Assembly (NCBI GenBank): GCA_015061495.1
Contig: SUWL01000028.1
Location: 1-33,539, forward strand
Direction of reading: 5' to 3'
Origin: Lentisphaerota bacterium
GTDB lineage: Bacteria; Verrucomicrobiota; Lentisphaeria; Victivallales; Victivallaceae
Length of the DNA stretch: 33,539 bases
Positions within the stretch are counted from its first letter, which is position 1, and every line of letters starts with the position of its first letter. Below the pieces are notes generated by a model. That model ran no database searches and was not told the origin of the DNA. It saw only the letters and a list, made by a program, of their open reading frames with translations. The translations under genes and the position numbers were made by a program. Below are positions 4,873 to 32,148 of this stretch, piece after piece.

Positions 4873-4890
4873 AACAGCAAAGGTTGAAAA

Positions 4891-5670: not shown

Positions 5671-5750
5671 ATATTCAGGGAATTTACGGCAGTCAGAGGA
5701 TTGTCGCTGATTTGAGTAGAACGAAATATGTTTGAACACAGGAGAATGAA

Positions 5751-6032: not shown

Positions 6033-6067
6033 CGAACCCATAGGAATAATATAAAGGAGTGCAAAGA

Positions 6068-8821: not shown

Positions 8822-8847
8822 AATCAACCATTGAAAGGATGAAAAAA

Positions 8848-9678
8848 ATGAATGTTGCAAAAATTTGTTCCATCGCGGTGATCGCTGCCGCATTGTCAGG
8901 TGCCGGAGCTGCCGAGGAGCTGCTCTATTTTCCCTTTGATGAAAACATCAATGCGGAAACCGCCGCAAAAAGCTGTTCCGTGGTCGGGCACATCGGATCA
9001 ACCACCGGCAACGGCGGATTTTCCGGTGAAGCTCTGGATATCAAACCGGGACTGAACATCGGGTACAACGGTATGGAAATGCCGTTCCGGGCGTTGACGG
9101 TCAAACCGGCACAGCACCACGATCCGGAAAAGGGCGCGATCGAATTTTACGTTGCCGCCTCAATGAATGATGCGGAGAAAAAGCAGGTGGAAGCCGGTAA
9201 AGCGGCTCCTTTTGCGTGGCTTTTCAATCTGGCAAGGTACGATGAATTCCGGCAGGAAGGTTCCTCCCTTAATATCCGCTTTGGCTACATCTATCAGAAA
9301 GGTAAACGCGGCAAGCAGTGGCGGCTGATAATCGTTGAATCCGCCAAAAAAGAGAAACGGGTCTACAAAACCACTTACGATTGGACGCAGTGCATGAATG
9401 AAAATATTTTCGGCGTGGATGCCGCCGACTGGAAACCGGGACAGTGGCATCATGTCGTCTTTTCATGGGAAGGCAAAAACCGCAAATTCTACGTGGACGG
9501 CAAATTGATCCGTGAGGTCAAAGATTCCGTCGTCTATCCCATGATTGCCAAAGCCGACTCGATGGTGTTTTGCGGCAGAGCGCCCTTTCAGCATCATCAT
9601 CCGCAAGTCTCCTGCCGGATGGATGAATTCAAAATCTACGATGCCCCCATTGTGCCTGCGGCAAAGGAAAATAAATGA
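8848..9678 (+). CDS. secreted LamG-like (concanavalin A-like lectin/glucanase) domain protein
   Basis: Start ATG 8848 follows AAAGGA (8834-8839) at good distance and yields a signal peptide (SIAVIAAALSGAGA, cleavage before AEELLYF). The mature protein of about 250 residues is one jelly-roll lectin domain of the LamG/laminin_G_3 kind. It opens with LLYFPFDENINAET, a typical start for such domains, and ends with PGQWHHVVFSWEGKNRKFYVDGKLI, the characteristic signature strand pair. These domains bind or line up carbohydrates; no separate catalytic domain is present. It overlaps the next gene by four bases and follows the large secreted protein by 26, so the three are likely translated together. 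Whether it binds substrate glycans for the neighbouring enzymes is inference. Confidence 0.85.
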   Translation: MNVAKICSIAVIAAALSGAGAAEELLYFPFDENINAETAAKSCSVVGHIGSTTGNGGFSGEALDIKPGLNIGYNGMEMPFRALTVKPAQHHDPEKGAIEFYVAASMNDAEKKQVEAGKAAPFAWLFNLARYDEFRQEGSSLNIRFGYIYQKGKRGKQWRLIIVESAKKEKRVYKTTYDWTQCMNENIFGVDAADWKPGQWHHVVFSWEGKNRKFYVDGKLIREVKDSVVYPMIAKADSMVFCGRAPFQHHHPQVSCRMDEFKIYDAPIVPAAKENK

Positions 9679-10886: not shown

Positions 10887-10929
10887 GGTCGGAACTGTAA
10901 AAAAAATGTCAGAAAATCAGTATTTTTCG

Positions 10930-10959
10930 TTGCGGCAGATTGTAAAAATTTGATATGAT
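10930..10959 (+). promoter_or_regulatory. promoter of the beta-helix/GH35/GH43 operon
   Basis: TTGCGG at 10930-10935, an 18-base spacer and TATGAT at 10954-10959 lie in the 133-base gap before the beta-helix gene, about 60 bases upstream of its start. The -10 box is good and the -35 box mediocre. I saw no hairpin terminator for the preceding gene. Confidence 0.45.
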
Positions 10960-11019
10960 GATATCTTATAAGCATGTGAGGCAGTTTGTGCCAACGAAAA
11001 TTTACAAAAGGAGTTGTTT

Positions 11020-15812: not shown

Positions 15813-15897
15813 AATATAATTGTTTATAAAGAAGTTTGGAATGCCTTCCGGAAAAATGATTTTCCGACCGGCAGATAATCAAAGGATATTTGAACTT

Positions 15898-18459
15898 ATG
15901 GAAAACACTCCCAGAGAGAATTCCGGGTTATTGTGTCTGCAATTCCTTTTCGGTCAGGTTCGCAGGAACGTCAATTTTTCGTCTCTGATGACTGCAAAGG
16001 TTTTGGCGGATTATGCAGATAATCCGGAAGCTGTACTCATGACACTTGCCGGAGATCAGCGGCTTGCCCCGGAAGTCATCACAACTCCGGAAACCCTCAA
16101 CCTCTACATCGGCCCGGTGCTGCTTTTGCTGAATACCAGCAGTTGGATACTGGCTCTTGATTCCCGCCCGCTCGTGAAAAAGGAGGGCAATGTGCCGATC
16201 CTTGACCCGGCGGCAGGAAAAAATGTTCTTCAAGTTCCGGTGGCACAGGTGTTGGAGAGATTCGGCGGTAAAGGTATAATTTTCCGCAATCTGGCACAGG
16301 TCGATGTGAAAAAACAGACCCGTCTGGCATCTTTTATGCAGATCGCCCGTCACAATAACACCCAGGTGGATATCCGGGAGATCATGCACGAATATGCGGT
16401 CGGTGAAGAGGAGGTGCGCGATTCGCTTTTTGCGGAGATCGCTTCGGATTACCACTTCAAGATGAAAAAAGTCAATCTGTCGTGGAAAGAACTGCAGAAA
16501 AGTTCATCGGTATTCCCCATGATCGCCGTCAAAAACAGCGGAAAATACGCGGTATTCTGCGGATTGCGCCCCCATGAGGACGGCGAAGCTGATGCGGTTA
16601 TTCTGGACCCGGAATCCGAGCAGTACAATACTCCGGATCACTTCCGGTTCCTCTCTGAAAAGGAGTTCTGTCAGGAGTTCGGCAAAAAGTTCATCCTGAT
16701 GAAAAAGGTCTACAAACTGTCCGATGAATCCCAGCCATTCAGTCTGCGCTGGTTCATTCCGGAATTTCTCAAGAATAAAGCGATTTTCGGCGAAATCGCC
16801 TTGATGGTGGTGCTGCTGACGGTCTTTTCACTGATCATTCCGCTCTTTTTCCAGATCGTCGTGGATAAAGTGCTGGTCAATCAGGCGTACAATACGCTCA
16901 ATGTCATCGGAGTGGGGATCATTATCGCAGTGATATTCAACGCGCTGGTCGGCTATGTCCGCAGTTATCTGCTGTTGTTTGCCACCAACAAGATCGATAT
17001 TTCCACGGCGACCAAGACCTTCACGCACCTTATGAAACTGCCGGTGGATTTCTTTGACCGGGTGCCGTCGGGCGTATTGCTCAAACACATGCAGCAGACT
17101 GAAAAGATCCGGGGATTTCTTTCCGGGAATCTTTTCTTCACCCTGCTGGATATTTTCGCACTGTGCATATTTATTCCGCTGCTGCTCTGCTACAGCTGGA
17201 TTTTGACCCTGATCGTGCTGGGATTTTCCGCACTGATGGCACTGGTCATCGCCTGTCTTATCAAGCCGTTCCAGAGACGTCTGGATGAACTTTATCAGGC
17301 TGAAGGTAAACGCCAGAGCATGCTCGTGGAGTCCATCCACGGTATCAAAACTGTCAAATCCCTCGCTCTTGAACCGGTGGAACGCAAAATCTGGGATGAT
17401 TCCACTGCCTATGCGATCAAATCCTATTTCCGGGTCGGTAAAATTTCCATGACCGCCCAGAGCATCAGCCAGATGCAGGAAATGATGATGACCATCTGCG
17501 TGATCTGGATCGGTGCGCATCTGGTTTTTGACCATGTGATCACCATCGGTGCGTTGATCGCATTCCAGATGCTCGCCAACCGGGTCACCGGTCCGCTGGT
17601 AAAAATGGTCGGACTTATCCATGAATATCAGCAGATCGCCCTGTCGGTACGGATGCTGGGAACCGTGATGAATTCTCCGGCTGAACCCGCCGGAGGCGGT
17701 GTCCGCAATCCGTTGCGCGGCGGCGTTGAATTTGAACGCATATCTTTCCGCTACCGCAGTGATCTGCCCATGGTCATCAAAAACTTCTCACTGGATATCC
17801 AACCCGGTGAAACCGTCGGATTCGTCGGCAGATCCGGTTCCGGTAAGACCACGATCACCAAACTGCTGCAGGGGCTTTACCATGTGCAGCAGGGTATCAT
17901 CAAAATCGACGGTATCGATATCCGCGAACTGGATAAAGCACATCTGCGGCGCAATATCGGCGTGGTGCTGCAGGAAAATTACTTTTTCAGCGGAACTGTC
18001 CGGGAAAATATCGCTCTTCCCAAACAGAATGCCGCACTGGAAGAGATCATTTATGCCGCCAAACTCGCCGGTGCGGATGAGTTCATTCAGAAACTCCCCC
18101 GGGGCTATGATACGGTGCTGGAGGAGAATGCCGCCAACCTTTCCGGAGGTCAGAAACAGCGCCTCGCTATCGCCCGGGCATTGCTGACCAATCCGCCGAT
18201 ATTGATTTTTGACGAAGCGACCAGTGCGCTTGACCCGGAAAGCGAAGAGGTCATCCGCAAAAATCTTAAAGCCATCGCTAAAGGCCGCACCGTATTGATC
18301 GTTTCCCACCGGTTGTCGATCATCAGCCATGCAGATAAGATCATGGTGCTGGACAATGGAGAGATCAGTGCGCTGGGCAACCACCGCGAACTGGTTTCGC
18401 AGCCGGGTATCTACCGGGAATTCTGGAATCAGCAAATGAGTGTGGAATTGGAGGACTGA
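15898..18459 (+). CDS. HlyB-like type I secretion ABC transporter with degenerate C39 domain
   Basis: Start ATG 15898 is preferred because AAAGGA lies at 15881-15886; in-frame ATGs at 15841 and 15856 would add up to 19 residues and have weaker sites. The 853-residue protein has an extra N-terminal part of about 140 residues, then a C39-peptidase-like domain (about 142-270) in which the catalytic cysteine is absent (RLASFMQIARHN). The membrane domain (about 285-560, WFIPEFLKNKAIFGEI, PLFFQIVVDKVLVNQ) is close to E. coli HlyB. The ATPase domain has Walker A GRSGSGKTT (644-652), LSGGQ (748-752), Walker B ILIFDEATSALD and switch histidine in VSHRLS. Such proteins drive one-step export of unfolded substrates with C-terminal signals, the dead C39 domain acting as chaperone. 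The next gene is its HlyD partner. Confidence 0.93.
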   Translation: MENTPRENSGLLCLQFLFGQVRRNVNFSSLMTAKVLADYADNPEAVLMTLAGDQRLAPEVITTPETLNLYIGPVLLLLNTSSWILALDSRPLVKKEGNVPILDPAAGKNVLQVPVAQVLERFGGKGIIFRNLAQVDVKKQTRLASFMQIARHNNTQVDIREIMHEYAVGEEEVRDSLFAEIASDYHFKMKKVNLSWKELQKSSSVFPMIAVKNSGKYAVFCGLRPHEDGEADAVILDPESEQYNTPDHFRFLSEKEFCQEFGKKFILMKKVYKLSDESQPFSLRWFIPEFLKNKAIFGEIALMVVLLTVFSLIIPLFFQIVVDKVLVNQAYNTLNVIGVGIIIAVIFNALVGYVRSYLLLFATNKIDISTATKTFTHLMKLPVDFFDRVPSGVLLKHMQQTEKIRGFLSGNLFFTLLDIFALCIFIPLLLCYSWILTLIVLGFSALMALVIACLIKPFQRRLDELYQAEGKRQSMLVESIHGIKTVKSLALEPVERKIWDDSTAYAIKSYFRVGKISMTAQSISQMQEMMMTICVIWIGAHLVFDHVITIGALIAFQMLANRVTGPLVKMVGLIHEYQQIALSVRMLGTVMNSPAEPAGGGVRNPLRGGVEFERISFRYRSDLPMVIKNFSLDIQPGETVGFVGRSGSGKTTITKLLQGLYHVQQGIIKIDGIDIRELDKAHLRRNIGVVLQENYFFSGTVRENIALPKQNAALEEIIYAAKLAGADEFIQKLPRGYDTVLEENAANLSGGQKQRLAIARALLTNPPILIFDEATSALDPESEEVIRKNLKAIAKGRTVLIVSHRLSIISHADKIMVLDNGEISALGNHRELVSQPGIYREFWNQQMSVELED

Positions 18460-18461
18460 TC

Positions 18462-19790
18462 ATGGAGTACGATGTGAAAAAAGTTCCCGGCAAGGTCATC
18501 GAATATCAGCCGGATGCTTTGGAAATAAAAAATCAGAAACTGCCCGGATTGATCAAATTCGGAGTGTGGTTTCCGCTGATTCTGGTTGCCGGTTGCATCA
18601 TCTGGGCATCATTCGCCAGAACCGATGTCGTTGTTCAGGGCGGCGGAAAAATGGTTTCCGACCAGCCGATGATCGTGATGAAACCGCTGGAAAGATCCGT
18701 GATCAAAGAGATCAAGGTCAAAGTCGGTGATGAGGTGAAAAAAGGTCAGGTGCTGATCACCTTTGACCCGGCATTCAACCGGGCGGAAGCCGACCGTTTG
18801 AAAAACGAGATCTCCGCCCAGGAGGCGCACTTGAAACGTCTGCAGGCGGAGTTTACCGAAAAGAACTTCGATGCCGGCAGCGATCACTTTGACCGCTGGC
18901 AGCTGGCGATCTACCGTCAGCGTCAGGAGTATTTCAAGCAGCGCATGACCTACTTTGCCGAAGCTCTCAAGCAGATCGATGCCATGGAAAAGAGCAAACA
19001 GGATACCTTGAGAAAGCAGAAGGAGCGGCTGATCAAAATTCAGGAACTTGAGGGCATTTTTGACGATCTGTACAAGAAAAAGGCCGGTACGCTGGTCGAT
19101 CTGCATCAGATGTCCATCACCCGTATGGAAATGGAAGCCGCCGTCGATCAGCTTGCCAATGATCTGCTGGAACTCAAACACCGCCGGGGGACGACACTGG
19201 CGGAGCAGAACTCCTTTGTCCAGGAGTGGCGCAACAAGATTTCCGAAGATATGGTGACGGTTGACCGGAATTTGACTTCCACCCGGAAAGAGTATGACAA
19301 GGTCGCCCAGTTGATCGAATATGTGGAATTGGTCGCTCCGTGCGATGCGGTGGTTCACGAAATCGCTTCATTTTCTCCCGGTTCAGCGGTGCGCGAGGCG
19401 GAAGCTCTGATCACCCTGGTTCCCACCGAGGGTACTATCGAACTGGAAGCTGAAATCCGTCCGGAAGATATCGGCAAAGTCAAAGTCGGTTCTGAAGCCC
19501 GGATCAAACTTTCCGCATATCCATTCCAGAAATACGGCACGCTTGCCGGTAAGGTGAAAAATATTTCCGAAGACACGTTGGAACGCAATGTCGGCGGTGC
19601 AACGGTCAAATATTATCGCGCCAGGATCGAAATCGATCCCAACAGCAAACTGCGCATCGTGGAAGATAAGTTCCGGCTGATTCCAGGCATGGAAACCCAA
19701 TGCGAAATCAAATGCGACCGCCGCCGGGTCATCACCTATGTGCTTTATCCGCTGATCAAAGCACTGGATGAAACCGCCCGGGAACCGTGA
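18462..19790 (+). CDS. HlyD-family membrane fusion (adaptor) protein of type I secretion
   Basis: The 442-residue protein begins two bases after the ABC transporter stop with GGAGG as ribosome-binding site. A short cytoplasmic start is followed by one membrane segment (FGVWFPLILVAGCIIWASF, about residues 27-46). Next is a half lipoyl motif (MKPLERSVIKEIKVKVGDEV, KKGQVLITFD) and a long alpha-helical coiled-coil hairpin (about 105-285, rich in glutamine, lysine and glutamate). The second lipoyl half (VELVAPCDAVVHEIASFSPG) and a beta-barrel with the terminal block FRLIPGMETQCEIKCDRR complete the fold. This is the standard HlyD/LapC architecture, joining the inner-membrane ABC protein to a TolC-like outer-membrane channel. 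No TolC homologue is in the window, so the channel must be encoded elsewhere. Confidence 0.93.
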   Translation: MEYDVKKVPGKVIEYQPDALEIKNQKLPGLIKFGVWFPLILVAGCIIWASFARTDVVVQGGGKMVSDQPMIVMKPLERSVIKEIKVKVGDEVKKGQVLITFDPAFNRAEADRLKNEISAQEAHLKRLQAEFTEKNFDAGSDHFDRWQLAIYRQRQEYFKQRMTYFAEALKQIDAMEKSKQDTLRKQKERLIKIQELEGIFDDLYKKKAGTLVDLHQMSITRMEMEAAVDQLANDLLELKHRRGTTLAEQNSFVQEWRNKISEDMVTVDRNLTSTRKEYDKVAQLIEYVELVAPCDAVVHEIASFSPGSAVREAEALITLVPTEGTIELEAEIRPEDIGKVKVGSEARIKLSAYPFQKYGTLAGKVKNISEDTLERNVGGATVKYYRARIEIDPNSKLRIVEDKFRLIPGMETQCEIKCDRRRVITYVLYPLIKALDETAREP

Positions 19791-19908: not shown

Positions 19909-22900
19909 GTGAGTTCAACCGGAAATGATTTTTGTTCAGCAGAATGTCTGTTGCATATATTGCCGGCTAACGCTGAAAAGATAAGTGCCCGGGTCAAAAA
20001 TTATGATGCAGTGATATACCGGGATGATACATCACTCTATTTCCCGCTGCTGACGGATGCTCCGGCATCTTCACGTCCTCTTGGCACTTATGAGTGCCGC
20101 CACTATGAAGCATTGAAACTGCTCAAAGACAACCCGGTTGAACATATCGCCCCGGTAACGGCGCTCTGTCACTGTTATCACGGTATTGCCATGATCAAAG
20201 GCGATGTGATGTTCAATGCCAATTCGATCCCGAAATGTTTTGATTCTTCCCAGGGGGCTTTGATCAGAGATCGCGATCAATCCATTTTGTGGAACAAATT
20301 CAAGATGTGGATGCTTGATCTGGCAACAGCACTGCGTGATCTGCACCGTTTGGGACTGGCACACGGAGATATTACGACCTTTAATGCGATCATCGATAAG
20401 AATGGTCATGCGTTCTGGATCGACCTCGAAAATCTCAATTTCGATCCGGTGCAGATGGATTGCGACATCGCATCATTCATCTTTCATGTCGTTCTTTTTG
20501 CAGCCGGACATTTGAAAGAGATGCCACTGAATTTTCTCGATGAGTGTACCGATATCTGGAAACATGCTTCTGACCGTCAGGAATTCATTGAAAAGTTCAT
20601 TGATCTGCTGCAGAAAGATTCTGCGCTGGAAACGTTATCCATGGCGGAGGTCCGCAGCCGCAATATTTCCCTTGCCAGAAGATTTGCAGACGCTGACGGG
20701 CAGACATCGTTCCATCGTAATTGTCAGGTCTATTTCAATGCTTCTGCGATCCATTTTCAACGGGATTTTCTCTGGCTGATAAACGGGATCATGCCGGCGA
20801 TCCGTCATGATCATTCTGTTTTGGCGGATATTTATCAGAGATTGGTGAATGTGGTCGATAATATCGATGAATTGAAGTCGATGGATAAAGAACGCATCGA
20901 AGCGTTCGGTAAACTTTCCAATGCATCCAAGATGGTTTCTCTGGAAAGTTCAAAAAGTGCTGTCGCTGACCGGAATTACCGGAAACTTGCCAATAAAGTT
21001 CAGTTGAGTTACCGTCTTGAATATGAATTACGGCAGAAAAATGCTGAACTGCGCTGGGAAAAGGCGCAGAATATTCTGCTGCGGCAGTTGTTCCGGGAAT
21101 TGAGCGATGCTTTTTCCGGATGTCGCGGCATCGATTTTCACAAGGCACAGATCCTGCAGATTTTGCGTGACCGGGAGATGAATGACCTGCCGGGGTGGGG
21201 AACTTCAGCGATGACCAAATTCATCTGTTCGATTCTCGACGATATCCCTGTCGATCCCGGATGTGAATTGCCGGAAACGGATTTTGATCTGAATTCGGTC
21301 AGCATCAAACGTTTTGAAGGTCTGGATTCATTTGCAAGCATCAACTGTCCGGAACCGGCGAAACCTCTGGATGTCCCGGATGAATCACTGCTGATCTCCA
21401 TCGTTCTTCCGGTTTACAATCAGGCCGAAATGATTTCAGAAGCCATCGATTCCATCCTGGCGCAGGATTACCGTAACTGGGAGTTGATCATTGTCAACGA
21501 TGGTTCGACGGATAATGTCGCTGAAGTCGTTGCACCTTATCTTACCGATCGCAGGATCTTTTATCTGGAACAGAAAAATCAGTATGTCGCCCGGGCATTG
21601 AGCAACGGTTTTGCCTTCGCATCCGGTGAATTTCTCACCTGGACCAGTGCCGATAATATCATGGAACCGCAAATGCTCCGCCGCTTGAGTGCCTTTTTGC
21701 GCAGTAATTCCGATACCGCCATGGTTTATGCAGACTATACCGCCATCAACGGCAAAGGCGAACCGCTGACTGAAAAATGGTACCGTCCGCATAACCGCCG
21801 TCGGCCGGATTCTCCGGAGATCCATCTGCCGCATACCACCGAATTGCTCAATCTGGTCCATGACAATTTCATCGGAGCCAGTTTCATGTACCGCCACTCG
21901 GTGAAAATGTTCTTTGAAGATTACGAACCGACGCTCGGCATCGAAGATTACGATTATTGGATGCGGATAAATTCCATGCTCAATATTTCCCATCTGGGAA
22001 CCGATGAATTGCTCTATCGTTACCGGGTGCACGATAAATCGCTTTCTGCGCATGCCAAAGAGCTGAAGATCCGTGAAAAAGCCATGCGGCTGCTGGGATA
22101 TGACAGAGAACGGCAGGGATTTTATTTCAAAGAGTTTGAGATATATGGTTCTTTCTCCCCAGCTCGGCTGAAATTAGGTGAATTTTTTGCACATTTCCAT
22201 GGCCAAAAGTGTGAAACAGCGCTCCCGCCGCATCCGCTGGATAAAAAAATTCTGCTGATCAGAGGCGATGAACTTGCATCCTACACCTTTGACGAATTGC
22301 GATGTTTCAACTTTATCGGGGTGTATTTTGCCCCCGGACAAGCCAATGAAGTCGGAAAAAACGCCTTTTTTATAAGGCGGTTCAAAATCCAGTGCTTCGC
22401 CGCAAGCGGCAGTGAAGAGATGCGCCGGATCAAGGTGCTGACTCCGCATTGTATGTCCTGCCTGCCCGGGGAAATCGGATTTTTCAGCGCGATCATCGCC
22501 AATAACCGGATCTTTTTTGATGCCACCCATAAACCGGAAGAACTCAAACGGGAACTGCCGCTTTTCCCGGAAAAAGATCCCGGCAGGATCATCATCCTGA
22601 TGGATTACTTCGGACACGGCGGCATGGAACAAGTGGCGTATGATATGGTCAGATCTTTCCGCAAAGCCGGACGCAATACCCTGCTGGTAAGTGTTTCCGG
22701 TATGGCAGATGATCTGGTTTTGCCGGAAGGTATCGAGATCCGTACTCTGGATGCAAATGATCCGCATACCGATTACCGGACTTTGCTCGCTTCCGAAAAG
22801 ACCGATGCGGTGATCGCCCACTACTGCACCTGGGGCGCATGGTATACTTTTGAACAGCATATCCCCTATTTCCAGGTCATCCACAATACCTATGTCTGGT

Positions 22901-23739
22901 TCAGTGACGAGGACATTGCCAAATATACCGAAACTTCTCCTTATACGACCGCATATATCGCCGTTTCCGCCAATGTGGCATGGTACGCCATGGAAAAAAT
23001 GAAACTGCCGCCGGAAAAGATGATCATCGTCGAAAATGGCGTGAATATCGGCAATTTCAAAAAATCTCCGGCAGTCAGAGAAAAAGTCCGCCGGGAATTG
23101 GGCTTCAAAGAGAGCGATTTCGTCATGCTCAATCCCGCCAGCTGTTACGGTGCCAAAAATCAGCTTGGCTTGATCCACGCCTTTGCCAAAGCCCGCATGG
23201 GCAACAGTAATTTGAAACTGGTCATGGCGGGAACCGTCCTTGAACCATACTACTTTGAGCGGATCAGACAGGTCATTGACAAATTCGATTTGCAGGACCA
23301 TGTGATCTGCGGCAGATATTTTGACAATATGCCGGATATTTACAATGCCGTCGATGCGGTGGTATTACCCAGTTTCTGGGAAGGTTGTTCGCTTGCAGTG
23401 GTGGAGACCATCCACATGCATCTGCCGCTGCTTGCCACCAATGTCGGTGATGTCCAGCGTCAGACCGACTGCCGCAACTGCCTGCTGGTCGATCTGCCAT
23501 TCAAATACCTGACGGAACTGGATTTCCGCAACTATACGGAAACGATCTGGAATCCGGATGAAAACATGGTCAACGAACTTGCCAATGCCATGCACAAAAT
23601 GGCTCTGGGCAACTACCCGATCGGCGCATATCCGAAAATCACCGAATTGAATGCCGATAATGTTTACGGACGTTATTTGAGAATATTGAACTATTACGCC
23701 GGCAGACTGGATATCAGTGTTTTCCGGCACAACATTTGA
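19909..23739 (+). CDS. three-domain protein: sugar-kinase-like, GT2 and GT4 glycosyltransferases
   Basis: The gene starts with GTG (AGAGG at 19896-19900) and encodes 1276 residues. Residues about 30-260 resemble the Kdo/LPS-kinase branch of the protein-kinase fold: HGDITTFN places Asp154 and Asn159 as the catalytic loop, and WIDLEN places Asp172 as the metal aspartate. A helical, probably coiled-coil stretch rich in K/E/R/L follows (about 310-400). A GT2 domain begins at ISIVLPVYNQAEM (496) and contains IIVNDGSTDN and WTSADN, where the usual first aspartate of DxD is serine (580) and Asp582 is kept. A GT4 domain runs from about 893, with GHGGMEQV, ENGVNIGNF and the EX7E pair Glu1158/Glu1166 in SFWEGCSLAVVE. 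No signal peptide or membrane segment is seen. It leads the export operon, so it probably builds and phosphorylates the glycan on the cytoplasmic side. Confidence 0.9.
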   Translation: MSSTGNDFCSAECLLHILPANAEKISARVKNYDAVIYRDDTSLYFPLLTDAPASSRPLGTYECRHYEALKLLKDNPVEHIAPVTALCHCYHGIAMIKGDVMFNANSIPKCFDSSQGALIRDRDQSILWNKFKMWMLDLATALRDLHRLGLAHGDITTFNAIIDKNGHAFWIDLENLNFDPVQMDCDIASFIFHVVLFAAGHLKEMPLNFLDECTDIWKHASDRQEFIEKFIDLLQKDSALETLSMAEVRSRNISLARRFADADGQTSFHRNCQVYFNASAIHFQRDFLWLINGIMPAIRHDHSVLADIYQRLVNVVDNIDELKSMDKERIEAFGKLSNASKMVSLESSKSAVADRNYRKLANKVQLSYRLEYELRQKNAELRWEKAQNILLRQLFRELSDAFSGCRGIDFHKAQILQILRDREMNDLPGWGTSAMTKFICSILDDIPVDPGCELPETDFDLNSVSIKRFEGLDSFASINCPEPAKPLDVPDESLLISIVLPVYNQAEMISEAIDSILAQDYRNWELIIVNDGSTDNVAEVVAPYLTDRRIFYLEQKNQYVARALSNGFAFASGEFLTWTSADNIMEPQMLRRLSAFLRSNSDTAMVYADYTAINGKGEPLTEKWYRPHNRRRPDSPEIHLPHTTELLNLVHDNFIGASFMYRHSVKMFFEDYEPTLGIEDYDYWMRINSMLNISHLGTDELLYRYRVHDKSLSAHAKELKIREKAMRLLGYDRERQGFYFKEFEIYGSFSPARLKLGEFFAHFHGQKCETALPPHPLDKKILLIRGDELASYTFDELRCFNFIGVYFAPGQANEVGKNAFFIRRFKIQCFAASGSEEMRRIKVLTPHCMSCLPGEIGFFSAIIANNRIFFDATHKPEELKRELPLFPEKDPGRIIILMDYFGHGGMEQVAYDMVRSFRKAGRNTLLVSVSGMADDLVLPEGIEIRTLDANDPHTDYRTLLASEKTDAVIAHYCTWGAWYTFEQHIPYFQVIHNTYVWFSDEDIAKYTETSPYTTAYIAVSANVAWYAMEKMKLPPEKMIIVENGVNIGNFKKSPAVREKVRRELGFKESDFVMLNPASCYGAKNQLGLIHAFAKARMGNSNLKLVMAGTVLEPYYFERIRQVIDKFDLQDHVICGRYFDNMPDIYNAVDAVVLPSFWEGCSLAVVETIHMHLPLLATNVGDVQRQTDCRNCLLVDLPFKYLTELDFRNYTETIWNPDENMVNELANAMHKMALGNYPIGAYPKITELNADNVYGRYLRILNYYAGRLDISVFRHNI

Positions 23740-23758
23740 GCAGAGGTATTTTATAGAG

Positions 23759-24607
23759 ATGAATCGGATCCTTAAAAAATTGCTGGTGCTGATAAATGTC
23801 TGGGCACCGTTGAAATACGTTTACGACCACCGGTCACTGACCGGAAATCTGATCAAACGCCGTTTTTCCCAGATGTACCGCAGTTCGATGATGGGCAAAT
23901 TGTGGAGCATCATCCACCCGTTATTTATGCTGCTGATCTACGCGTACGTTTTCCGGATCGTCTTTGAAGTCCGCTGGGATATGGAAAATGCCAATGAAAC
24001 GGATTCGATGTTTGCCATTACCATGTTCACCGGTATGATATTTTTCAACGTCTTTGCTGAGGCGCTCAACTCCTCTGCCAACGTGATGGCTGGCAATGTG
24101 AATTTTGTCAAAAAGACCATTTTCCCGCTGGAATTGCTGCCGATCACCCAGAGTTTGGGAGCGGCGATCACCGGTGTGATCTGTTTTGCTCTGGTGGTCG
24201 TTGCACGGGTGATATTTGACGGATTCGGGATCTTTTCCTGGAGCATGCTGCTTTTTCCGCTGTTGTTCATTTTGTTTTTATTCTTTGTTTCCGGGATCTG
24301 CCTGTTTGTGGCATCGCTTGGGGTCTACTTCCGGGATACCCAGTTTGTATGCGGCATTATTCTGCAGATGCTCTTTTTTACCACCCCGATCTTCTATCCG
24401 GTGGAGAGGGTCCCGGAAGAGTATCACTGGGTGCTGGACAGCAATCCGCTTTCACTCTACGTCAGTGTGGGCAGGAAGTTGCTGCTTAACGGCGCAGTTC
24501 CCGGTGCCGACAGCTGGCTGTTGATCGTTTTAATCAGTGTACTGGTCTGGCAGTGCGGCTGGACATGGTTCACCACCACCAAAAAGGGATTTGCTGATGT
24601 CCTCTGA
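23759..24607 (+). CDS. wzm: ABC-2 polysaccharide export permease (Wzm-like)
   Basis: Start ATG 23759 gives MNRILKKLLVLINVW and a 282-residue protein; an upstream in-frame ATG at 23717 would overlap the preceding gene and has no ribosome-binding site. A short amphipathic start (RSLTGNLIKRRFSQMYRSSM, GKLWSIIHPLFMLLIY) is the hallmark of this permease family, followed by six hydrophobic segments including YAYVFRIVF, GMIFFNVFAEAL, LLFPLLFILFLFFVSGICLF and a last one near the C-terminus. Wzm proteins form the channel that flips a finished undecaprenyl-linked O-antigen or other polysaccharide across the inner membrane. It is 19 bases from the glycosyltransferase gene and overlaps the ATPase gene by 11 bases. 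Confidence 0.93.
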   Translation: MNRILKKLLVLINVWAPLKYVYDHRSLTGNLIKRRFSQMYRSSMMGKLWSIIHPLFMLLIYAYVFRIVFEVRWDMENANETDSMFAITMFTGMIFFNVFAEALNSSANVMAGNVNFVKKTIFPLELLPITQSLGAAITGVICFALVVVARVIFDGFGIFSWSMLLFPLLFILFLFFVSGICLFVASLGVYFRDTQFVCGIILQMLFFTTPIFYPVERVPEEYHWVLDSNPLSLYVSVGRKLLLNGAVPGADSWLLIVLISVLVWQCGWTWFTTTKKGFADVL

Positions 24608-25904
24608 TATTTTGATGCAGGCTGATAATATTTCCAAGGCGTACCAGATCTACGCCAAACCGCATCACCGTTTCCTGCAGTGTCTGTGTGCGGGTAAAAA
24701 GCGTTTCTATGAAGAATTCTGGGCACTGCACAATATGTCCATGACCCTGAAACGCGGCGAAAGTGTCGGTATCATCGGCTGCAACGGTTCCGGTAAAAGC
24801 ACCTTGCTGCAGCTGCTCGCCGGGGTTCTGCAGCCGACCAGCGGTACGATCACCCGCAATGCCCGTATCGCGGCACTGCTGGAATTGGGCAACGGCTTCC
24901 ATCCGGACTACACCGGCAGGGAGAATATCGTGCTTGCCGCATCTCTGCAGGGGATCACTGACGCGGAATTGAAAAAACACATGGATGAGATCATTGATTT
25001 CGCCGCGATCGGGGATTTCGTTGACCGCCCGTTGAAAACCTACTCCAGCGGTATGGTTCTGCGTCTGGCGTTTGCGGTTTCCACCTTGCTGCTGCCGGAA
25101 ATTCTGATCATCGACGAAGCTCTTGCTGTCGGGGACTGTTTCTTTCAAGCCAAATGTTACTCCCACTTGCACAAACTTCTGGAAAAGGGGGTCGCTCTGC
25201 TCTTTGTTTCCCACTCGCAGGCAGTGGTCACTTCGCTGTGCAACCGCTGTTTGCTCCTGCACCATGGCGATCTGTTGCTGGATACTGATCCGGCAACTGC
25301 TTTTGATATGTATATGGAACTCAACGCGGCATCCGCCGGGCAGGGGTCTGCTGCCGCTCCCATCCGGAAAGCGGCTCCGGAAGCAGGGGCTGAAGAAGAT
25401 GAAAATAAACTTCAGACCGTTTCCCGCAGTCAGGCACCGTTCTCTTCCCGGGTGGTCAACCGGATCTCCTCATCGGTGGCGGAATTCACCGACTGCATGA
25501 TGCTGGTGGACGGCAAAGAGGTGCTTCAGCCGCGGCCCGGCAGAAACTGCACCATCCGTGCCGTTATAAAAGTCCATGAAACGTTGAAATCCACGGAGAT
25601 CGGCTGTGTGATCAGCACGATCGAAGGAGTGCAGCTTTTTGCGTTGAATTCCTACTTCAACGGCGATAATATCCCGGAACTTACGCCGGGGATCTGGGTG
25701 GCGGATTTTACTTTCAAAGTCGATCTGCGTCCGGGAACTTACTTCAAAGTCGATCTGGGGATGCGTTCTCCGATCCAGGGTGAATATGCTGATAAAGCCT
25801 TCAATGCGCTGGTCTTTGAGGTGGCTCCGGATCCGGATTCATTCCTGCCGCTGCTCTTTTCCGTACCGAACAAAATCGAATTTACCAAAGCCGGAGAACT
25901 TTGA
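24597..25904 (+). CDS. wzt: polysaccharide export ATPase with C-terminal glycan-binding domain (Wzt-like)
   Basis: AAAAGGG (24582-24588) supports ATG 24597, giving 435 residues. The N-terminal ATPase has Walker A GCNGSGKST (61-69), the LELGNGFHPDYTGRENI segment typical of the polysaccharide exporters, signature TYSSGMVLRLAF in place of the classic LSGGQ, and Walker B LIIDEALAVGD. After an acidic, alanine-rich linker (about 245-275) the C-terminal 160 residues form a beta-sandwich (AEFTDCMMLVDGKEV to GTYFKVDLGMRSP) matching Wzt-C domains. In E. coli O8/O9a the Wzt C-domain recognises the modified non-reducing end of the chain and licenses export. The presence of this domain and of a methyltransferase and kinase nearby suggests the same logic here. 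Confidence 0.93.
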   Translation: MSSDILMQADNISKAYQIYAKPHHRFLQCLCAGKKRFYEEFWALHNMSMTLKRGESVGIIGCNGSGKSTLLQLLAGVLQPTSGTITRNARIAALLELGNGFHPDYTGRENIVLAASLQGITDAELKKHMDEIIDFAAIGDFVDRPLKTYSSGMVLRLAFAVSTLLLPEILIIDEALAVGDCFFQAKCYSHLHKLLEKGVALLFVSHSQAVVTSLCNRCLLLHHGDLLLDTDPATAFDMYMELNAASAGQGSAAAPIRKAAPEAGAEEDENKLQTVSRSQAPFSSRVVNRISSSVAEFTDCMMLVDGKEVLQPRPGRNCTIRAVIKVHETLKSTEIGCVISTIEGVQLFALNSYFNGDNIPELTPGIWVADFTFKVDLRPGTYFKVDLGMRSPIQGEYADKAFNALVFEVAPDPDSFLPLLFSVPNKIEFTKAGEL

Positions 25905-25906
25905 TC

Positions 25907-26707
25907 ATGCAATATCTGCCAACTGTCAGCGATGAACAGCTGAAAACACGTCTGCTTGATCCGGATCCGGAATTTTTGAAGCAGATATTTACCAATGAAT
26001 ATGAGCGTGTCGGCATCGACCGGGCGTTGATGATCGCTGCCGATCTGCTGGTGCGCACCGGCAAGTGCCGGGATTATTCTCTGCTGGATGTCGGATGCAA
26101 TACCGGCTTGATCGGCAGAGCAATCGGCGCACTGGGCAATACCGTTGCGGGGATCGACAATTATGCAGTAAATTCCCAGCAGCTTTATGCCGATTTGATC
26201 AATGTTGAGAAGCGTGATCTGCTGGAATATATGCAGAATACCGGTACCGTCTGGGATGTGGTGCTGCTCTTGAGTGTCGCTCATCATTGGGAAACCGGTT
26301 ATGCCATGTCGGGCAATGCCATGTACACCAAAGAGCAGATCAACTGGATATTCGATCAGCTTAAAGAGCGTACTTCCATCGGAGTGTATATGGAAATGCC
26401 GCTGAATGAACCCGGATTTGACCCGGAATTTACCGACCGTTTCATTCAGGAGTATTGCGGCGGATTTGAAGTGCAGGAGATCAACCGCACCGTGGGGACA
26501 AATGGCTTTCTGCGGCGGATGTTTTTCCTTGCGTCAGCATCGGAGACACGCCGTCCGGTCTGGAAAAAGATTTTGCGCCGGGTCCGGCTCGCCGCCAGCA
26601 AGGCTCTGCTGATCAAACTGCTGCGCAATGCCCATTTGTATGAAAAAATGGAAATGGCACGCTTGACCGTTCCCCGGGTTTATTGTCCGGAAAAAATGCA
26701 GAAATAA
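25907..26707 (+). CDS. class I SAM-dependent methyltransferase
   Basis: ATG 25907 follows GGAG (25893-25896) and lies two bases after the Wzt stop. A TTG at 25901 is too close to that site. The 266-residue protein has the SAM-binding glycine motif LLDVGCNTGLIGRAIG (about 59-74), the acidic residue at the end of strand two in VAGIDNY, and VVLLLSVAHHW as motif for strand four. The C-terminal 60 residues are basic and helical (KKILRRVRLAASKALLIKLL), perhaps for membrane association. Placed between Wzt and nucleotide-sugar genes, it probably methylates a sugar of the exported glycan, possibly the terminal residue. The actual acceptor is unknown. It resembles the methyltransferase part of WbdD-type chain terminators in position and motif order, but I cannot show homology by eye. 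Confidence 0.85.
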   Translation: MQYLPTVSDEQLKTRLLDPDPEFLKQIFTNEYERVGIDRALMIAADLLVRTGKCRDYSLLDVGCNTGLIGRAIGALGNTVAGIDNYAVNSQQLYADLINVEKRDLLEYMQNTGTVWDVVLLLSVAHHWETGYAMSGNAMYTKEQINWIFDQLKERTSIGVYMEMPLNEPGFDPEFTDRFIQEYCGGFEVQEINRTVGTNGFLRRMFFLASASETRRPVWKKILRRVRLAASKALLIKLLRNAHLYEKMEMARLTVPRVYCPEKMQK

Positions 26708-26745: not shown

Positions 26746-27870
26746 ATGAAAAAAGTTCTTGTAGTATTCGGTACCCGCCCGGAAGCGATCAAAATGGTGC
26801 CGGTCGCTAAAATGTTGAAAAGTTACACCGGAGATTTTGAAGTCAAAGTCTGTTCCACCGGACAGCACCGGCAGATGTTGGATCAGGTGATGGAATTTTT
26901 TGATCTGCAGGCGGATTTCGACCTCAATATCATGGCTCCGGATCAGACTCTGGCGGATGTTACCTGCAAGGTGCTCAAGGGAATGGAAGAGGTTTTCAAA
27001 CAGTGGAAACCGGATATTGTGCTGGTTCAGGGAGATACCACCACCGTGATGGCGGCGGCACTGGCGGCATTTTATCAGAAAATCGAGGTCGGCCATGTGG
27101 AAGCCGGCTTGCGTACCGGCAACCGTTATTCGCCGTGGCCCGAAGAGATGAACCGCATGATCGCCACCCAGCTGGCAACGATCCATTTTGCTCCCACCGA
27201 AACCAGCAGAAACAACCTGCTGCGCGAAGCCGTCGATCCCGGAATCGTCCATGTCACCGGCAATACGGTGATCGATGCCCTCTTTGAAGCGGTCAAAATA
27301 ATGGATAGCGATCCGGGAATGATCAAAAGTATGCAGGAGAAGTTTTCCTTCCTTGATCCGGCTAAAAAACTGGTGCTGGTTACCGGACACCGGCGGGAAA
27401 ATTTCGGGGACGGATTTTTGCAGATCTGCCGTGCCATCAAAGAGATCGCTTCCCGGGACGATGTGCAGGTCGTCTATCCCATGCACATGAACCCCAATGT
27501 CCGCAAGCCGGTAAATGAGATCCTCGGTGATGCCGGTAATGTTCACCTTATCGAGCCGCAGGATTATCCATCGTTCCTCTATCTGATGCGGCAGAGTTAC
27601 CTGATCCTCACCGATTCCGGCGGCGTGCAGGAAGAGGCTCCTTCGCTGGGAAAACCGGTGGTGGTTATGCGCGATACCACCGAACGCCCGGAAGCTGTGC
27701 AAGCCGGTACCGTTGTCCTCGCCGGAGCTGATAAGGAAAATATCTGCAAGTATGTCCTGCAGCTGCTGGACGATCAGAGCTTCTACCAGAATATGTCCCG
27801 TTCCATCAACCCCTACGGTGATGGCAAAGCTTCATGGCGGATCGCGGAATTACTGAAAAATCAGGGTTGA
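26746..27870 (+). CDS. wecB: UDP-N-acetylglucosamine 2-epimerase (non-hydrolysing)
   Basis: The 374-residue protein is a clear Wec[21 protein letters not shown] at the start, [16 protein letters not shown], the conserved [21 protein letters not shown] block, and [13 protein letters not shown] and [20 protein letters not shown] in the second lobe. It interconverts UDP-GlcNAc and UDP-ManNAc in the cytoplasm. AGAGGA upstream and a 38-base gap after the methyltransferase keep it in the operon. WecC, which would turn UDP-ManNAc into the uronic acid, is absent from the window, so the glycan may contain ManNAc itself or the next enzyme lies elsewhere. Confidence 0.97.
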
Positions 27871-27872
27871 TC

Positions 27873-28943
27873 ATGGCAAACCGGATTATCGTCACCGGCG
27901 GCGCCGGATTTATCGGTTCCGCGCTTGTCCGGCACATCATCGGCAGCACCGCAGATCAGGTCTGCGTGGTCGATAAACTTACCTATGCCGGAAATCTGGA
28001 ATCTCTGGCAGCGGTTTCTTCATCCGACCGGTTCCGCTTTGAGCAGTGTGACATTTGCGATAAAGAGGCACTTGACCGGATCTTCGCGGATTTCCTGCCG
28101 ACACATGTGATGCATCTTGCCGCTGAAAGTCACGTAGACCGCTCCATTGATGCGCCGGGAGAGTTCATACAGACCAATATCATCGGCACTTATACGCTGC
28201 TGGAATCGGCAAGAAAGTATTTTTCTTCTCTGGATGAAGCGGCAAAAGCGGCGTTCCGGTTTCACCACATTTCCACCGACGAAGTTTATGGAGATCTGGT
28301 AAATGACGATGATTTTTTCCGGGAAACGACCGCTTATGCGCCGAGTTCACCGTATTCGGCATCCAAGGCGGCAAGCGACCATCTGGTGCGGGCGTGGAAA
28401 AGAACATTTCAACTGCCGACACTGGTGACCAACTGTTCCAATAACTACGGACCTTATCATTTCCCGGAAAAACTGATCCCGCTGATGATCCTGCACGCAC
28501 TGGACGGCAGAGAATTGCCGGTTTACGGACAGGGTTTGCAGATCCGGGACTGGCTCTATGTGGAAGATCACGCCCGGGCTCTCTATCTGGTCGCCACCAG
28601 AGGAAAACCCGGCGAAACCTATAATATCGGCGGTCATAACGAGAAAAAAAATATTGAAGTGGTAAAGACCATTTGTTCACTGCTGGATGAGTTGTCCCCC
28701 CGGGCGGACGGCAGATCTTATGCGGAACAGATCGTATTTGTTTCCGACCGCCCCGGACATGATATGCGTTACGCCATTGATGCGGATAAGATCGCCCGGG
28801 AGCTGAACTGGAAACCGCAGGAGACCTTTGAGAGCGGCATCCGCAAAACGGTGTTGTGGTATCTGGAACACAAAAATAAGTGGTGTGCCAGAGTTTTAAG
28901 CGGTGAATACCGTATGGAACGGTTGGGAAAAGGGGGTAAGTGA
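27873..28943 (+). CDS. rfbB: dTDP-glucose 4,6-dehydratase
   Basis: ATG 27873 is two bases after the wecB stop, with AGGG at 27863-27866, and gives 356 residues. It is a short-chain dehydrogenase fold: [15 protein letters not shown] binds [15 protein letters not shown] and [12 protein letters not shown] are RmlB motifs, and [12 protein letters not shown], the [10 protein letters not shown] catalytic tyrosine and lysine, and [15 protein letters not shown] follow. It converts dTDP-glucose to dTDP-4-keto-6-deoxyglucose, the second step to dTDP-L-rhamnose. It is followed one base later by rfbA. Confidence 0.97.
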
Positions 28944-28944
28944 T

Positions 28945-29823
28945 ATGAAAGGTATCGTACTTGCCGGAGGTGCCGGCAGCAGACTGCATCCGGTGACCGT
29001 CGGAGTTTCCAAGCAACTGCTGGCGGTTTATGACAAACCGATGGTTTACTACCCGATTTCCGTGCTGATGCTGGCGGGGATCCGGGAAATATTGATCATT
29101 ACCACCCCGGAAGATCAAAGTTCATTTCAACGACTGCTGGGTGACGGCAGTAAGTTCGGAGTGGAGTTTTCTTATGCCGTTCAGCCCCGTCCGGAAGGTC
29201 TGGCGCAGGCATTCATCATCGGCAGGGAATTTATCGGCGATTCCCGGGTGGCACTGGTTTTAGGTGACAATATTTTTTACGGAGCGCATCTTTCTTCACT
29301 GCTCAAGGATGCTGTCGCCAGAGAATCCGGTGCCACGGTATTCGGCTACTGCGTCCGGGATCCGGAACGTTTCGGAGTCGTGGAGTTCGACGAAAACGGC
29401 AAGGCGGTCTCCATCGAGGAAAAACCGGCGGTCCCCAAGTCAAATTACGCTGTGACCGGGGTTTATTTCTACGACAACGAGGTGGTTTCCATCGCCGAAA
29501 GCATCAAACCGTCCGCCAGAGGAGAACTGGAAATAACTGCGGTAAATAACGCATATCTGCAAAAGGGAAAACTCCATGTCGAAACGCTTGGCCGGGGGTA
29601 TGCGTGGCTCGATACCGGTACCCACCGCAGCATGCTGGAAGCTGCCAATTTCATCCACACCATCGAAACCCGGCAGGGATTGCAGGTCGCATGTCTGGAA
29701 GAGATCGCATTTGAAAACCACTGGCTGGATGCGGAAGACTTGCGCCGTTCTGCTTCGGAAATGCTTAAAACCGAATACGGTCAGTATCTGTTGAGGATCG
29801 CCGACGGAGAGAACCGCAGATGA
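28945..29823 (+). CDS. rfbA: glucose-1-phosphate thymidylyltransferase
   Basis: The strong site AGGGGG (28931-28936) fixes ATG 28945, one base after the rfbB stop; product 292 residues, as usual. The N-terminal nucleotidyl-transfer signature is [20 protein letters not shown], then [28 protein letters not shown] and [18 protein letters not shown] are further RmlA motifs. It makes dTDP-glucose from glucose-1-phosphate and dTTP and is the first enzyme of the rhamnose branch, usually inhibited by dTDP-rhamnose. The stop overlaps the next start (ATGA). Confidence 0.97.
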
Positions 29824-30386
29824 AAATCATTGAGTGTGCCGTCCCGGAAGTAAAAGTGATCATCCCCGACGTTTTCGGCGATGAAAGGGGATATTTTTTT
29901 GAATCGTGGAACGAACAGAAGTTTGCCGCTGCCGGGATCTTCTGCCGTTGGGTGCAGGATAATGAATCCAGATCCAGGGCGGGAGTCATCCGGGGGCTGC
30001 ACTATCAGCTGCCGCCTTATACCCAGGCAAAACTGGTCAGAGTGATCGAGGGCAAAGTGCTGGATGTGGCGGTAGATATCCGCAAAGATTCGCCGACATT
30101 CGGCAGGTATGCGGCAGTGGAACTTTCCGGGGAAAACAAGTATCAGTTGTTTATTCCCCGGGGATTTGCACACGGATTTGCGGTGCTTTCTGAAACGGTG
30201 GTTTTCGCCTATAAGTGCGACAATATCTATATGCCGGCAAGCGAAAGGGGGATCGCCTGGGATGATCCGCAGTTGGGGATAAATTGGCAGATCCCCGCTG
30301 AAAATGCCGTTTTATCCGGTAAAGACCGGCTCAATCCCGTTTTTGCCGCCGGGGAATTTTTTGACGGAGCAGAGTATTTGAGATGA
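29820..30386 (+). CDS. rfbC: dTDP-4-dehydrorhamnose 3,5-epimerase
   Basis: The 188-residue cupin-type enzyme shows the RmlC set: [19 protein letters not shown], the catalytic histidine in [33 protein letters not shown] and [15 protein letters not shown]. It epimerises carbons 3 and 5 of the 4-keto sugar. Both ends overlap neighbouring genes by four bases, indicating translational coupling within the rhamnose set. Confidence 0.97.
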
Positions 30387-31234
30387 AGATCCTCGTGACC
30401 GGCGGCAAAGGCATGCTCGGCAGAACACTTTGCCGCAGCTGGCAGGATTGGGAAGTCGTCCCGGCCGACCTGCCGGAAGCTGATATTACCGATAAGGTAA
30501 AATTCCATGATCTGGTCGCTTCAGTTTGTCCGGATGCGGTTATCCACTGTGCTGCCATGACTGCCGTTGATAAGTGTGAATGTGCCGTAGAACAGGCGTA
30601 TTTGCTCAATGAAACCGGTTCTGCCAATGTCGCATCGGCGTGTGCGGCAAACCGGGTGCGTTTGATCGCGATTTCCACGGATTATGTTTTTGACGGCAGA
30701 GCAGAGCATCCTTATGATGAATTTGATCAGCCCAACGGCGGCGATACGGTTTACGGTAAAAGCAAATTTGCCGGAGAAGAGGCGGTGCGCCGTGCGGTTG
30801 TCGACCATGTGATCTGCCGGATTTCATGGCTTTACGGTCCGGGAGGACCGAGTTTTGTTCACACCATGCTGCAGCTTGCCGACGGAAGCCGTCCGGAACT
30901 GAAAGTGGTGGCAGATCAGATCGGCAATCCGACTTCAACATTGGCAGTGGCGGCAAAATTGCGGGAAATCGTTTTGCGTCCGGAGGTTCGCGGGACACTG
31001 CACTTAACTTGCGAAGGAGAGGCATCATGGGCGGAATTTGCCGCTGAAATTTTCCGTTTGGCAGGTCGGAATCAACGGATCGTGCCATGTTCGACGGAGG
31101 AGTTTCCCCGTCCGGCGCCCCGCCCGAAAAATTCGCGTCTGACCAAGTTGCGGCTGAAAGAGTTGGGCTTTGCCCCCATGCCGCACTGGCAGGATGCGCT
31201 GGCTGAATTTATGAAAGAGGAATTTCCCGGATGA
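30383..31234 (+). CDS. rfbD: dTDP-4-dehydrorhamnose reductase
   Basis: The 283-residue protein is RmlD: ILVTGGKGMLGRTL for NADPH binding, DITDKVKFHDL, VIHCAAMTAVDKCE, the STDYVFDGRAEHPYDE motif and YGKSKFAGEE with catalytic tyrosine and lysine, then RISWLYGPGGPSFV. It reduces the keto sugar to dTDP-L-rhamnose and so completes the four-enzyme pathway of this operon. Starts and ends with four-base overlaps. Confidence 0.96.
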   Translation: MKILVTGGKGMLGRTLCRSWQDWEVVPADLPEADITDKVKFHDLVASVCPDAVIHCAAMTAVDKCECAVEQAYLLNETGSANVASACAANRVRLIAISTDYVFDGRAEHPYDEFDQPNGGDTVYGKSKFAGEEAVRRAVVDHVICRISWLYGPGGPSFVHTMLQLADGSRPELKVVADQIGNPTSTLAVAAKLREIVLRPEVRGTLHLTCEGEASWAEFAAEIFRLAGRNQRIVPCSTEEFPRPAPRPKNSRLTKLRLKELGFAPMPHWQDALAEFMKEEFPG

Positions 31235-32148
31235 CTGATATCCTGCTTGCCACCTGGAATTCGGCGAAGTTTCTTGAAGAACAGATCGATTCCATTATTG
31301 CCCAAACTGTTACGGATTGGCGGCTGCTGATCCGTGACGGGGGGTCAAGTGATGAAACACTGGCGATAATTGACCGGTACAGCAGTAAAGATGCCAGGAT
31401 CATGCTGGTGGAGCAGGGGCAGGCAGGAGCGATGGAAAATTTTTCCAGATTGTTGAAATTTGCCGAAGCCGACGAAGTGATGTTTGCTGACCACGACGAT
31501 GTGTGGCTGCCGGAAAAGGTGGAAAAATCCAGGAAGTTTCTGCAGGAAGTTTCTGCAGAAGTTCCGGATGGCACACCGGTATGCGTATTTACCGATGCGC
31601 TGGTTACCGATGCGGATCTTGCCGTGATCGCCCCGTCCAATTTGCGGAATCAGCACCTTGATCCGGCAGGCGGGCTGTCATTGCCCCGGCTGCTGGTGCA
31701 GAATGTTCCATCGGGCAATACGATGATTTTCAACCGGGCATTGGTGAAGTTGATCGACCCGATCCCGGCAACGGCGGTGATGCACGACCATTATGCGGCA
31801 TTGGCAGCGGCGGCGGCAGGGAGAATAGAGTATTTGAATGAGCCGACCTTGCTTTACCGTCAGCACCATGCGAACGTATTGGGGAGCAGTTCCTACGGAG
31901 TGCGGGAGATGTTCCGCAAATTATCCGGTGGTGCAGGCGTGCTGCGCAAGCGTTTTTTTGCCAACTGCCGTCAGGCGGAAGCTCTCTTGAACAGCGGGAT
32001 CGAAGTGGATGAAAAAAGTGCCGCTTTGCTGAAAACGTTTGCTTCTCTGGAAAAGATGACTTTTATTAAACGCAAATACACCATTATCCGTTACGGTTTC
32101 TGGAAAACCGGTTTTCTCCGCAATTTGGGGATGCTCATTCTGATCTGA
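31231..32148 (+). CDS. GT2-family glycosyltransferase (rhamnosyltransferase-like)
   Basis: The 305-residue protein is a GT-A fold transferase: TDILLATWNSAKFLEEQIDS at the start, LIRDGGSSDETL, and the metal site FADHDDVWLPEKV with an intact DHDD. QNVPSGNTMIFNRALV and AVMHDHYAALAAAA hold the acceptor-side histidine-aspartate region usual in rhamnosyltransferase relatives. No membrane segment is present. It is the last gene of the operon and directly follows the enzymes for dTDP-L-rhamnose, so transfer of rhamnose is a reasonable inference. The start overlaps the rfbD stop by four bases. Confidence 0.9.
   Translation: MTDILLATWNSAKFLEEQIDSIIAQTVTDWRLLIRDGGSSDETLAIIDRYSSKDARIMLVEQGQAGAMENFSRLLKFAEADEVMFADHDDVWLPEKVEKSRKFLQEVSAEVPDGTPVCVFTDALVTDADLAVIAPSNLRNQHLDPAGGLSLPRLLVQNVPSGNTMIFNRALVKLIDPIPATAVMHDHYAALAAAAAGRIEYLNEPTLLYRQHHANVLGSSSYGVREMFRKLSGGAGVLRKRFFANCRQAEALLNSGIEVDEKSAALLKTFASLEKMTFIKRKYTIIRYGFWKTGFLRNLGMLILI

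Follow-up and report, generated by a model that had tools for sequence, protein, structure and literature searches.

A methyltransferase, a kinase and a coiled coil form one protein, WbdD, in Escherichia coli O9a and Klebsiella O3, where the polymerase WbdA is separate and Wzm and a Wzt with a C-domain are encoded next door. Excerpts of the O9a report state that phosphorylation is sufficient to terminate the chains, that WbdD residues H132, H133 and R203 are essential for methylation of the phosphate, and that neither the O8 enzyme nor any other known sugar methyltransferase has an equivalent of the H132/R203 pair (PMC3482155). The same excerpts describe the E. coli O8 WbdD as an enzyme without a kinase that methylates a hydroxyl. 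O8 and O9a therefore do not share a capping chemistry, and their joint treatment in an earlier reading of the DNA studied here, made from its letters alone (the sequence-only reading), had to be dropped. Fusions of a terminator to glycosyltransferases have been published for Klebsiella O7, O12 and, without a kinase, WsaE (PMC11231755, PMC2943079). As given in excerpts of the Klebsiella report, terminator and polymerase sit at opposite ends of the coil, which is described as a molecular ruler of chain length; O7 ORF6 has the order methyltransferase-kinase-CBM-coil-GT2-GT2 and a kinase that resembles AmiN and is reported to be unlike that of WbdD, while O12 WbbB is a Kdo-transferase with two glycosyltransferases (PMC11231755). 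Excerpts on the Geobacillus S-layer glycan give WsaE as methyltransferase-GT-GT (PMC2943079).

The locus described here, from a Lentisphaerota bacterium, shares with WbdD of O9a/O3 a methyltransferase and a kinase with matching catalytic residues, a coiled coil, and Wzm/Wzt with a C-domain next door. Here, unlike in WbdD, the methyltransferase is a protein of its own and glycosyltransferases are attached to the kinase-coil; the N-lobe of WbdD also differs, without the four cysteines that are invariant in the present family. Going by the excerpts, Klebsiella pneumoniae O7 ORF6 is similar in its methylphosphate terminator, its coil, its two glycosyltransferases in one chain and its rhamnose-containing glycan, but ORF6 includes a methyltransferase and a predicted CBM in the chain, and both of its polymerase modules are GT2 (PMC11231755). 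O12 WbbB likewise combines its terminator with two glycosyltransferases in a single coiled-coil polypeptide (PMC11231755), but it terminates with beta-Kdo, without kinase or methyltransferase. The N-terminal domain found here matches kinase folds. WsaE is comparable in that an N-terminal cap enzyme and two rhamnosyltransferases form one protein, with wzm/wzt and rml genes nearby, but its cap is a 2-O-methyl added by the methyltransferase domain, and the excerpted text gives it no kinase (PMC2943079). The present system fails the single-chain definition of both WbdD and O7 ORF6 and was therefore filed under neither, but it most likely works as they do.

The sequence-only reading had held that covalent fusion would tie capping, length control and export together, in an architecture for which it knew of no described system. 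Fusion of terminator and polymerase is known from the published portions cited above for O7, O12 and WsaE, but a standalone methyltransferase with a kinase-headed polymerase is distinctive. The observation itself was confirmed, and its interpretation was partly supported. The new points are that the methyltransferase is separate in every locus seen, that the kinase heads the polymerase chain, that polymerase modules appear to be exchanged, that the kinase has a four-cysteine N-lobe, and that the system occurs far outside enterobacteria. Among the titles and abstract openings covered, none described a standalone methyltransferase with a kinase-coil-glycosyltransferase fusion; a 2019 survey in Glycobiology, which is said to deal with the diversity of chain termination, may already list it.

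Organization of the Cluster

The window, that is, the whole stretch of 33,539 nucleotides that was analyzed, is contig SUWL01000028.1 of a 2.67 Mb assembly. Co-directional genes between 19909 and 32148 encode a 1276-amino acid protein, Wzm, Wzt, a methyltransferase, WecB, RmlB, RmlA, RmlC, RmlD and a GT2 glycosyltransferase (Table 1). In the product of the first gene (19909-23739), a domain with a kinase fold is followed by a short, weak coil and then by a GT2 and a GT4 domain; Wzm, Wzt and the lone methyltransferase are encoded next. Pfam assigned the GT2 and GT4 domains, left the first third of the protein without assignment and found no methyltransferase domain in it. The domain and gene order proposed in the sequence-only reading was confirmed by Pfam and the fold calls. 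The domain content, the fold, the conserved catalytic residues, the relationship to WbdD and the kinase-methyltransferase-Wzt-Wzm linkage were all computed here. Between the GT2 and GT4 domains (21835-22617), residues 725-924 had no Pfam match above the cut-off; the stretch is still covered by similarity to loci L042 and L055.

Table 1. Features of the cluster in the window and of two related proteins
Feature	Position	Strand	Evidence or remark
Domain with a kinase fold (residues 1-290 of the 1276-aa protein), predicted to terminate the glycan	19909..20778	+	AF2 model, Foldseek/VIA, WbdD profile match
Four N-lobe cysteines	19933-19947 and 20167-20175		1276-aa protein
Catalytic segment H152-G-D154-x4-N159 to D172	20362..20424	+	Kept in 8/8 kinases and WbdD
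Linker of helices with weak coiled-coil character (residues 294-401), proposed to act as a ruler	20788..21111	+	AF2 helices, heptad score
GT2 domain, Pfam match residues 497-642	21397..21834	+	PF00535 E 3.1e-27; homology extends beyond Pfam match
GT4 domain, residues 904-1194	22618..23490	+	PF13439, PF00534, PF13692
Wzm, ABC-2 permease of glycan exporter	23759..24607	+	PF01061 E 2.1e-22; ORF listed from GTG 23717
Wzt, exporter ATPase with C-terminal glycan-binding domain	24597..25904	+	PF00005, PF14524; ORF listed from GTG 24537
Wzt C-terminal carbohydrate-binding domain	25458..25829	+	PF14524 E 1.6e-13
Standalone methyltransferase, predicted terminal-phosphate methylation	25907..26707	+	Residue numbers start at TTG 25901, the listed beginning of the ORF
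WecB, UDP-GlcNAc 2-epimerase	26746..27870	+	TIGR00236 E 1.4e-156
RmlB, RmlA, RmlC, RmlD, dTDP-rhamnose supply	27834..31234	+	Domain/family matches
Further GT2 glycosyltransferase	31231..32148	+	PF00535 E 7.5e-18
Hydrogenophaga kinase-GT proteins	L043 5615-9319 and L045 10596-14336		86% identical

The Kinase Domain

The N-terminal domain had been read as kinase-like, and its AF2 model, of low confidence (mean pLDDT 58.7, pTM 0.52), matched the kinase fold through Foldseek and VIA. Window residues H152, D154, N159 and D172 are equivalent to WbdD H349, D351, N356 and D369. The sequence-only reading had named a missing kinase fold, and loss of Asp154, Asn159 or Asp172 in homologues, as findings that would speak against it. 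A kinase fold was found, and the equivalents of WbdD D351, N356 and D369 are kept in all eight kinases of the family, which have diverged to 19-24% identity with that of the window.

The family kinase profile placed WbdD at ranks 3-6 of 159 PDB matches (E 0.006-0.013), with the match confined to the catalytic segment; the best match was another kinase, 9gmp (E 7e-5), and hhalign against WbdD gave a probability of 65%. Structural comparison of the model returned mostly protein kinases in the Foldseek list, with WbdD at rank 48, and WbdD was absent from the 50 VIA rows listed. When the window kinase was used as a single sequence, the best PDB matches were eukaryotic protein kinases (E 0.034), and WbdD was absent among its 37 PDB matches. 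Pfam matches of the domain were weak and fell in the RIO, Pkinase and Kdo families.

The N-lobe differs from that of WbdD. Its cysteines 9, 13, 87 and 89 are invariant in the eight members and absent from WbdD, and possibly form a metal site. No invariant lysine was seen in the N-lobe, and the WbdD acceptor/metal residues Y230, R270 and E274 had no clear equivalent in the window, where alignment of the N-lobe is unreliable.

The Methyltransferase and the Exporter

The methyltransferase is a separate gene in all eight kinase loci. Its family profile found WbdD first in the PDB (E 6.3e-6), with UbiG close behind (8.1e-6). Window R36, H128, H129 and R205 align with WbdD R36, H132, H133 and R203, the R203 column coming from MAFFT alignments; the hhalign match stops at WbdD residue 165, short of R203. 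Equivalents of R36, H132 and R203 are present in nine of nine methyltransferases and that of H133 in eight; the window enzyme has all four, and in the EW11 enzyme H133 is replaced by Q and D82 by E. None of the nine retains Y16, another residue that WbdD requires. The top PDB match and the conserved residues support the link to WbdD that had been proposed. At the EW11 locus L033, a second methyltransferase gene of the Methyltransf_11 type (7258-8175) lies between the kinase-coil and GT2-GT4 genes.

The exporter was recognized from PF14524 (Wzt_C), above the Pfam cut-off, and the paired ABC-2 permease PF01061. The best PDB match of the window Wzt was 8dku (E 1.6e-65). A profile of the Wzt tails from the eight loci matched only five PDB sequences at E 0.01 (8dky, 6o14, 8dku, 7k2t and 2r5o), all titled ABC transporters and read as Wzt; we take the first four to be Aquifex Wzt and 2r5o an O9a-type Wzt C-domain. 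A comparison by hhalign with the O9 Wzt from E. coli HS returned 84%. The glycan-binding tail anticipated in the sequence-only reading is supported by PF14524 and by these five matches.

Recurrence of the Module

Wzm, Wzt and the methyltransferase adjoin the kinase in all eight kinase loci, so that the neighborhood does recur. The gene order is Wzm, Wzt, methyltransferase, kinase in seven loci, and the window is the one with the kinase gene first; in seven of the eight, the kinase gene starts at most 10 bases from the end of the methyltransferase gene or overlaps it. Since five of the eight kinase loci were found through the methyltransferase, fairer counts of linkage come from each direction of search. 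When genome contigs were scanned with an alignment of three methyltransferase sequences, 43 pattern matches and six true relatives came up, namely G045, EW11 (Opitutaceae), and the four new ones in Pelotomaculum, two Hydrogenophaga and a Planctomycetota assembly. A kinase gene adjoins in five of the six, the sixth being on a truncated contig. Conversely, the methyltransferase adjoins in three of the three genomes first found by the kinase with that of the window excluded (EW11, G647 and G731); EW11 is counted in both tallies. G045, of the same family as the window, has a Wzt 60% and a methyltransferase 53% identical to those of the window. Its 4 kb contig breaks off within Wzt, and a kinase match was absent from the assembly. 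The divergences of kinase and methyltransferase correlate over the eight loci (r 0.94, reached by 0 of 2000 permutations), a value that leans on two close pairs of loci. The arrangement in the window is not due to chance, given the linkage in the eight loci and the near end-to-end match of the fusion protein at L055. In L054 and L055, too, a WecB gene comes after the module, and both Hydrogenophaga loci have rml genes beside it.

The system was rare wherever it was sought. With the starting genome included in each count, the kinase profile matched three of 250 genomes in the family of the Hydrogenophaga genome, one of 113 in the class of the Pelotomaculum genome and two of 199 in the phylum of the Planctomycetota genome. 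One of the last two, G1026 (E 1.2e-7, partial), was dropped, as none of ten module proteins matched within 18 kb at E 1e-8. The methyltransferase was found in three of 387 sampled genomes of the phylum of the window and in two of 137 of its order. The loci lie in assemblies labelled as Verrucomicrobiota, Bacillota, Pseudomonadota and Planctomycetota, four phyla. This rare and patchy distribution suggests horizontal transfer; several of the host labels belong to metagenome assemblies, where misbinned contigs are possible.

Other searches returned few relatives. The N-terminal domain as a single sequence found one relative in 100, the window itself, and a first scan of genome contigs gave no match. 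The kinase search of the phylum matched 31 of 387 genomes at E 0.01, mostly by short matches over the catalytic segment; of the 29 loci besides that of the window, 14 had a frame read on the right strand and two, L022 and L023, on the wrong strand only, and the 14 frames included one kinase-coil protein (L004, EW11). A two-sequence kinase profile matched two of 103 genomes in the order of EW11, EW11 itself and G460, the latter rejected as an ordinary Ser/Thr kinase by sequence with no Wzm/Wzt among the surrounding ORFs of at least 250 amino acids. The L054 kinase had no match at E 1e-5 in 72,556 plasmid records. In a genome of the same order as that of the window, L020 (955-1884) encodes a kinase judged by eye to be WaaP/Kdo-type-like, with a match over the catalytic segment only.

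Modularity and the Helical Linker

The kinase-coil was found with different partners. In EW11 it stands alone, with GT2-GT4 as a separate protein. Pelotomaculum, L054, Hydrogenophaga L043 and a Planctomycetota genome have it in one chain with GT4-GT4, and the fusion proteins of L055 and the window, 30% identical over nearly the whole length, have GT2-GT4 instead. Outside its fusion, Pelotomaculum also encodes a GT2-GT4 protein whose identity with the C-terminal part of the window protein is 35%. The proteins of L054 (5243-9133) and L055 (4575-8516) are 47% identical in the kinase-coil with different glycosyltransferase pairs behind it, and their flanking genes are alike by eye, as would result from a swap of the polymerase with the terminator retained. 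The system would show the terminator of ABC-exported glycans to be modular, a kinase with a coil that occurs alone, on GT4-GT4 or on GT2-GT4. As kinase-coils of 47% identity precede unrelated glycosyltransferases in two genomes, more than one polymerase would be available for work on the ruler.

The helical stretch behind the kinase had been called a probable coiled coil. The AF2 model of the 1276-residue protein has helices at 296-340 and 350-403, with low pLDDT, and a heptad signal follows the kinase in all eight proteins by a score of our own; these favor a coil, but in the window it is short and has the weakest signal of the eight. The Hydrogenophaga proteins L043 and L045, alike throughout, differ in the coil by a 14-residue insertion, equal to two heptads, a difference that might fit a ruler of variable, tuned length.

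Proposed Mechanism and Alternative Explanations

We consider it likely that the cluster serves polysaccharide assembly and ABC export with a split WbdD-like methylphosphate terminator, in which the kinase is fused to exchangeable polymerase modules. In the scheme that we infer for substrate, step order, ruler function and cap recognition, the GT2 and GT4 domains would extend a lipid-linked glycan, probably containing rhamnose, while the helical spacer would hold the N-terminal kinase away from them. The kinase would phosphorylate the non-reducing end of a chain that has grown far enough to reach it, and growth would stop; the separate methyltransferase would then methylate the terminal phosphate, and the Wzt C-domain would recognize the capped end for export of the chain by Wzm/Wzt. 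Judging from the rml and wecB genes, the glycan would contain rhamnose and possibly ManNAc. Because phosphorylation is sufficient for termination in O9a, a methyltransferase acting in trans is compatible with this scheme. A more specific version, which we put forward only tentatively, is that the loci form a separate methylphosphate-terminator lineage, marked by the four-cysteine N-lobe, in which the kinase in cis stops growth and the methyltransferase in trans, near Wzt, licenses export.

The lack of an invariant lysine in the kinase N-lobe would also suit a degenerate scaffold or regulator, with the methyltransferase capping the chain directly on a sugar hydroxyl, as O8 and WsaE terminate by O-methylation in the excerpts cited (PMC3482155, PMC2943079). 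This is unlikely, as the catalytic triad is kept in all eight diverged kinases and equivalents of H132 and R203, the pair for which the O9a excerpts report no counterpart in the O8 enzyme (PMC3482155), persist in the methyltransferase. Less probable still is a phosphate that decorates the glycan, added by the kinase to internal residues or to a side group of the repeat unit. A kinase and a polymerase in one chain would also suit such decoration during synthesis, but a Wzt with a glycan-binding C-domain, a phosphate-type methyltransferase and a heptad signal after the kinase accompany it in all eight loci, as in known terminators. Least probable of all is a protein kinase or WaaP/Kdo-type core kinase, fused by chance and regulating the synthase. 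Protein kinases dominate the Foldseek list and the weak Pfam matches point the same way; against this, the constant partner is a WbdD-like methyltransferase, and the PDB profile search puts WbdD third, ahead of most protein kinases.

The natural separation of kinase and methyltransferase means that phosphorylation and methylation could be removed singly by gene deletion, for which WbdD needs point mutants. Such removals would test whether the phosphate alone stops growth and whether export needs the methyl group.

Neighboring Genes

Two PF02397 and three PF04932 matches elsewhere in the genome of the window indicate that enzymes for initiation and attachment may exist. ORFs 6059-8821 (920 amino acids) and 9675-10886 (403 amino acids) had no Pfam or NCBIfam match at E 0.001. 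Directly upstream of the cluster, 15820-19790 encodes a type I secretion pair, an HlyB-like ABC transporter with a C39-like domain and an HlyD adaptor. The region 38-15669 is a polysaccharide-degradation cluster with a glucuronoyl esterase, an acetyl xylan esterase, a LacI regulator, a beta-helix protein, GH35 and GH43.
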